Below are positions 30,426-31,192 of a stretch of 64,000 bases of DNA, in pieces. This DNA comes from Pithys albifrons albifrons (Eukaryota; Chordata; Aves; Passeriformes; Thamnophilidae): positions 4,113,939-4,177,938 of the forward strand of contig NC_092458.1 in NCBI RefSeq assembly GCF_047495875.1, in the 5' to 3' direction. The notes under the pieces were generated by a model. The model searched no databases, had not been told where the DNA came from, and was given only the letters and a program-made list of their open reading frames with translations. Position 1 is the first letter of the stretch; the number at the start of each line of letters is the position of its first letter. Both the position numbers and the translations under genes were made by a program.

Positions 30426-30495
30426 GAACATTAGCAAATATGTATAATGTTGTTACAAGAGTCAGGGCAGATGCAAAATGTCAATGACAGTAAGT
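30426..30495. repeat. Left copy of 70-bp direct repeat (target-site duplication)
   Basis: Identical to 31123-31192 at 69 of 70 positions; the single difference is T at 30481 versus G at 31178. The two copies immediately flank the RTE-like fragment 30496-31122. A direct repeat that abuts both ends of a retrotransposon fragment is best read as a target-site duplication. Confidence 0.93.
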
Positions 30496-31122
30496 TATCA
30501 TCATGGCTCGGCTTCACGAAGGAAGATTTGAGAAGGGCACTACCCAGGCTTGCTGCAAGCTGCTGGTGGCTAAAAAGGCCGATACGGGATAGGCAGGTCC
30601 GGTCACAAAAGGCACAGCGGAACGTCTCCCTGGGTGACATTGGCAAGGAATGGTTCTTTCTGCGTTGTCTTTTCTCCTCAAGACTGACTCTCCATGCATT
30701 CTCAAAGGAAGCAGCAGCGTCGTGAATGGTGTCTCTCCATGAATCCCGATTGGAGGCCAGAGTGGACCATTGGTGGCAGTCAATATGGCCAAGGGTGAGG
30801 TGTTGTTTCAGGGAGTCCTTGTATCTCTTCTTCGGGGCTCCTCTCTTGCGGCAGCCGGTGGCAAGTTCACCATAGAGCACAACCTTTGGAAGGCAGTGGG
30901 TGATCCTCCATCCTGGAGACGTGCCCTGCCCAGCGCAGCTGCGTTCTCATCAGCATGGCCTCGATACTGCTGACCCCTGCCTGTTCAAGAACAGACACAT
31001 TGGTCATGTAATTAGACCAGTGGATGTTTAGGACTGAACGGAGGCAGCGCTGATGGAAGCATTCGAGAAGCCGCAGGTGGTGGCGGTAGATGACCCAGGA
31101 TTCAGACCCATATAAAAGAGTA
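30496..31122 (-). pseudogene. RTE-like non-LTR retrotransposon fragment, C-terminal RT region with zinc-finger-like end
   Basis: This 627-bp piece encodes, on the minus strand, the end of a non-LTR retrotransposon protein. From the 5' end come YGSESW, then LECFHQRCLRSVL, LRWAGHVSRM, then after a frameshift YGELATG, RKRGAPKKRYKD, SNRDSWRDTI and a zinc-finger-like FRCAFCDRTCLSRIGLFSH. In the 149-codon frame at 30431-30880 the finger ligands are Cys 89, 92, 96 and His 105. These motifs are those of RTE-like elements. The frameshift lies near 30885-30900. The frame runs to the element's 3' end (GATGATA) with essentially no 3' UTR. It is 5'-truncated. In birds the known RTE family is AviRTE; that assignment is inferred. 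Confidence 0.85.
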
Positions 31123-31192
31123 GAACATTAGCAAATATGTATAATGTTGTTACAAGAGTCAGGGCAGATGCAAAATGGCAATGACAGTAAGT
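31123..31192. repeat. Right copy of 70-bp direct repeat (target-site duplication)
   Basis: Partner of 30426-30495. It begins directly after the 5' truncation point of the RTE-like fragment. The near-identity of the copies indicates an insertion that is not ancient. Confidence 0.93.

Follow-up and report, generated by a model that had tools for sequence, protein, structure and literature searches.

An RTE-clade LINE insert, 5'-truncated and very likely AviRTE, between 70-bp direct repeats in bird-like DNA

On the minus strand of this DNA lies a 627-bp insert that we take to be an RTE-clade LINE, very likely AviRTE, with a truncated 5' end. We propose that it was placed by target-primed reverse transcription and that about 70 bp separated the two nicks. 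We put the probability of this reading at roughly 0.88. The insert occupies 30496-31122 of the window, by which we mean the whole stretch of DNA that we analysed (1-64000; 64 kb). It exactly fills the space between two direct repeats of 70 bp each, which abut both of its ends: copy 1 (30426-30495) is on the element's 3' side and copy 2 (31123-31192) is on its 5' side, with a start-to-start distance of 697 bp (neither copy is assigned to a strand). The copies are identical at 69 of 70 positions, the sole mismatch being T at 30481 versus G at 31178, and the bases beyond each copy differ on both sides, which gives the repeat a sharp 70-bp limit. The description in the initial annotation, a 627-bp minus-strand insert between 70-bp repeats that differ at one base, was thus borne out. 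In a self-BLAST of the window, the pair had E = 7e-28, which rules out a chance repeat, and there was no third copy of the 70-mer at E ≤ 1e-4.

On its minus strand, the insert codes for the C-terminal end of a protein of the RTE-clade LINEs, split over two frames. One reading frame (31127-30903; TLLYGSESW...AGHVSRMED) covers the first coding piece (30903-31122, minus strand), which in longer relatives follows the reverse-transcriptase domain; some of the listed relatives that share the insert's C-terminal region, longer matches among them, carry PF00078. The other reading frame (30895-30497; LPKVVLYG...RKRGAPKKRYKD...SNRDSWRD...CAFCDRTCLSRIGLFSHQ) includes the second piece (30543-30895, minus strand), with its CxxC zinc-finger-like end. 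Because the insert has two reading frames, a frame change must lie near 30895-30903, and the alignment places a second one inside the second piece, near 30561 and about 20 bp before the old stop. The TAG at 30540-30542 (minus strand) aligns with the end of the Willisornis copies and is followed by a 3' UTR of 44 bp (30496-30539, minus strand) that ends in ...ATGATGATA. In a Pfam scan, zinc-finger-like and other matches all fell under their cut-offs (the best was PF23574, with E = 5e-4 and 20.4 bits versus a cut-off of 27). A PDB sequence search gave nothing meaningful (the best match was a glutaminase chain, E = 0.0099), and both Rfam at gathering scores and a tRNA scan were empty across the window.

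AviRTE has a 5' UTR of 0.8 kb, a single ORF (about 3.2 kb) that encodes an endonuclease and a reverse transcriptase, and a 3' UTR of about 40 bp (PMC4844689). The insert differs from this in retaining only the last ~0.6 kb of ~4 kb, with a broken frame; as it has no endonuclease or reverse-transcriptase part, this copy would be unable to move by itself. What it has in common with AviRTE is the 3'-terminal sequence, the length of the 3' UTR, and a C-terminal protein that is nearest to bird copies. Specifically, 18 of the 19 bases of the published 3'-terminal primer AviRTEfull-4R agree with the 3' end of the insert (30497-30515, plus strand); the other nine primers of PMC4844689 have at least 4 mismatches everywhere within the window.

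A protein search with the insert gave 416 homologues from 528 candidates. Among the 120 matches listed, 35 are bird-named proteins: 33 are from suboscines (24 Willisornis, 4 Pitangus, 3 Manacus, 1 Pseudopipra, and 1 Myiozetetes) and 2 are from Amazona. We built group consensus sequences from 27 of these 35 (leaving out P0093, P0094, P0095, P0098, P0099, P0103, P0112, and P0115). The insert's protein equals the Willisornis consensus (18 copies) at 170 of 186 residues, although the first ~50 residues of this consensus come from at most ten rows, some of them misaligned there. It equals the consensus of 4 tyrant copies at 152/186 residues, of 3 manakin copies at 147/186, and of 2 Amazona copies at 94/129. 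The published yardstick for AviRTE is 83-99% nucleotide identity to subfamilies (PMC4844689); we used protein identity to bird copies instead. Given the primer match, the length of the 3' UTR, and the similarity to the Willisornis consensus, we consider the insert very likely to be AviRTE, and the earlier suggestion of an RTE-like, probably AviRTE, element is supported.

Could the insertion be real and the element belong to another RTE family? Related RTEs are present in crocodilians, turtles, and aquatic animals (PMC4844689), unnamed and non-bird proteins among the matches listed reach 82% identity over part of the query, and the AviRTE name was reached by primer and protein comparison rather than by alignment to a nucleotide consensus. 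However, both the 3' terminus and the 3' UTR length fit AviRTE, and non-bird relatives that span the full range are at most 68% identical over ~92% of the query (among the matches listed), less than the agreement with the suboscine copies (170/186). We therefore view another RTE family as very unlikely. The initial annotation had also named CR1 and L2 as elements that the insert might match instead. The window is rich in CR1, and neither the insert's DNA nor its peptides had a non-self match within it below E 0.1 (self-BLAST), so we rejected this identity.

The insert's AviRTE appears to be antbird-like. At 11 sites, the insert has the commonest Willisornis state, against the commonest states of the tyrants and manakins, Amazona, and the outgroup; in the same site table, there were no sites at which the insert and the tyrants and manakins share a state that is absent in the others. 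These site patterns point to an antbird-like element within a comparison whose named birds, among the matches listed, are only suboscines and Amazona (the AviRTE of trogon, mesite, tinamou, hornbill, and hummingbird is outside it). The backbone of a protein tree (29 of 34 rows) is without support. The published AviRTE consensus from Gymnopithys is at 0.088-0.090 to those of trogon, mesite, and tinamou, versus 0.133 to Manacus (PMC4844689).

The host DNA itself seems to be avian: this is supported by CR1 tails, (ATTCTATG)n, and by the homologues of the window's CR1 reverse-transcriptase ORFs, most of which come from birds (among the 120 matches listed of 7999 scored, three belong to sea turtles and some have no species name). 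We compared three of these ORFs, at 60502-61344, 57046-57897, and 23899-25029. They match the same Columba livia protein (P0133) at 89, 87, and 80%, and their best Willisornis matches are at 81, 81, and 78%. Among the matches listed, the Columba protein is the closest to all three CR1 ORFs, ahead of those from Willisornis and other suboscines, which speaks against a simple antbird placement of the window.

As for how the element arrived, we suggest that the plus strand of the window would have been nicked after ...CAGTAAGT (30495) by the element's endonuclease. From this nick, the element's RNA would have been reverse-transcribed, starting at the RNA's 3' end, and synthesis would have halted after ~0.6 kb of ~4 kb. 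The opposite strand would have been cut about 70 bp from the first nick, and gap filling would have produced two copies of the 70-bp stretch between the cuts. Target-primed insertion leaves the 3' end of an element complete and its 5' end truncated, with repeats on both flanks (reviewed in PMC2881922), and we favor it because the insert has all three features, with the repeats abutting it. In this model, the length of the repeat is the distance between the nicks, here ~70 bp. That the repeats are a target-site duplication, as had been claimed, is also the best reading of their sharp limits and their position against the insert.

The sequence at the nick can be compared to Bov-B, another RTE-clade LINE, whose signature is a duplication that opens with A after T, plus a stretch of three T's (PMC13295347). 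The insert's duplication likewise starts with A after T (element sense; n = 1), whereas its T stretch is incomplete, with TT and not TTT at 12-13 bases upstream (n = 1). The repeat ends, at the 5' junction, in TC (element sense), and these two bases may be part of the Ser codon of the conserved stretch STLLYGSES, so up to 2 bp may be common to the target and the element.

Alternatively, cDNA of the element might have been captured during the repair of a double-strand break, with the filling of long overhangs giving the 70-bp repeats and without involvement of the element's endonuclease. This would suit both the length of the duplication and the 5' truncation of the fragment, and LINE insertions in chicken cells show long target-site changes (PMC2666801). 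However, the insert's 3' end is complete to the published AviRTE terminus, and the T|A at the nick fits a cut by the endonuclease, if weakly. Endonuclease-independent insertions are often 3'-truncated, in contrast to the complete 3' end here. We judge repair capture to be highly improbable.

It is also conceivable that a 70-bp tandem duplication came first and that the element later hit the junction of the two units exactly. A nick spacing of 70 bp would then not be needed, but two events and an exact hit would be. A second, shorter duplication around the insert is absent (the bases outside the copies differ), and the self-BLAST did not list any further copy of the 70-mer in the window, so we find this order of events hardly credible. 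Finally, a repeat length of 70 lies near the k-mer overlaps in common use, as might be expected if the repeat were an assembly artefact in which an overlap was duplicated at a join. But one base differs between the copies, and the insert stops at a genuine terminus of the element. Also, exact 5-bp duplications are present at 5 of the 6 LTR copies in the window whose ends we inspected. An artefact would be extremely surprising.

If target-primed insertion is correct, then the duplication is long for this type of element. One published AviRTE locus has a duplication of 13 bp (PMC4844689). In other RTE-clade LINEs, the duplications of SR3 are 10 and 12 bp (PMC1291365) and those of hagfish RTEs are 16/18 and 6/19 bp (PMC7245038). 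Human L1 duplications peak at 14-16 bp (PMC2912911). For ZfL2-2, a zebrafish LINE assayed in wild-type DT40 cells of chicken, 24 of 25 insertions altered the target site by 20 bp or less (PMC2666801). The 70 bp here exceeds the RTE duplications that we compared (6-19 bp), the human L1 peak, and these 24 of 25 target-site changes. A survey of Bov-B covered duplications from 10 to 49 bp only (PMC13295347), so a 70-bp case would go unnoticed there. Among titles and abstract openings in the open-licence literature, we did not find a survey of AviRTE duplication lengths.

On the other hand, L1 duplications extend to several hundred bases (PMC1291365), and the remaining ZfL2-2 insertion in wild-type DT40 (1/25) has a duplication of 1,228 bp (PMC2666801). 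Like our locus, this is a duplication of far more than 20 bp in a bird genome, although it comes from a zebrafish LINE in a cell assay. Long LINE duplications are rare yet on record in bird cells, so 70 bp is an outlier with precedent. The initial annotation had argued that so long a duplication implies unusually distant nicks. The inferred distance of ~70 bp agrees with this, but with the DT40 precedent and a single copy, the case is less notable for the element than was claimed. The weight that was placed on the rarity of such elements in birds was also too high, as AviRTE, an element of some tropical birds and of filarial nematodes (Suh et al. 2016, PMC4844689), has been published from seven bird lineages, with 141 to 8,306 copies in avian genomes (PMC4844689).

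A single locus gives neither a new mechanism nor the usual nick spacing of AviRTE. To the record of bird-like DNA it adds a broken copy of a probable AviRTE and a long target duplication, both of a known kind. It is doubtful that very long duplications are the rule for AviRTE in this bird, or that the host is outside the seven published lineages and so represents a further horizontal transfer. If the second nick of AviRTE is usually far from the first, this would bear on the placement of second-strand cleavage by LINEs, and the locus would also gain in weight if its host is a lineage new to AviRTE. Its sharp limits and the one mismatch would make it a clean presence/absence marker among the host's relatives.

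The insertion looks young for this window, judging from the few differences within the duplication and from its CpG content. The duplicated sequence, 140 bp in all, has 1 substitution (95% limits of 0.0002-0.040 per site per copy). The ratio of observed to expected CpG (CpG o/e) is 0.52 in the insert, as compared to 0.04-0.23 in 13 LTR or CR1 copies from the window, and outside the insert, 0.52 was not reached in any of 1243 windows of the same length (627 bp; the highest value was 0.47). Part of the high CpG may have been inherited from the active element.

Across the whole window, CpG o/e is very low (0.12). The 14 LTR, CR1, and AviRTE copies that we measured make up 17% of the window. This DNA is possibly W-linked or from another region of low recombination; in Trogon surrucura, AviRTE reportedly accumulates on both sex chromosomes (PMC12651973). 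The window also has a strongly strand-skewed stretch of ~1 kb of CCCTT/CCCTTT repeats (49182-50148), and the GC skew at 48001-50000 is -0.48.

A search with an LTR ORF of the window gave 13 candidates but no homologue, as all of their E values were above 0.1. One pair of LTR-like copies (34304-34931 and 37209-37834) shares a strand and 94% identity, with 2.3 kb between the two. Each copy carries a 5-bp duplication of its own (GGTCC and TATGT), so each seems to be a solo LTR in its own right rather than one end of a shared element. A diverged relative of this pair is at 11834-12528. Another solo-LTR-like family (TG...CA, ~625 bp) has four copies that are 93-95% identical (28486-29111, 40099-40720, 54516-55139, and 62756-63374), three of which have exact 5-bp target duplications, and two diverged relatives (1882-2488 and 50779-51395) that are 85% identical to each other.
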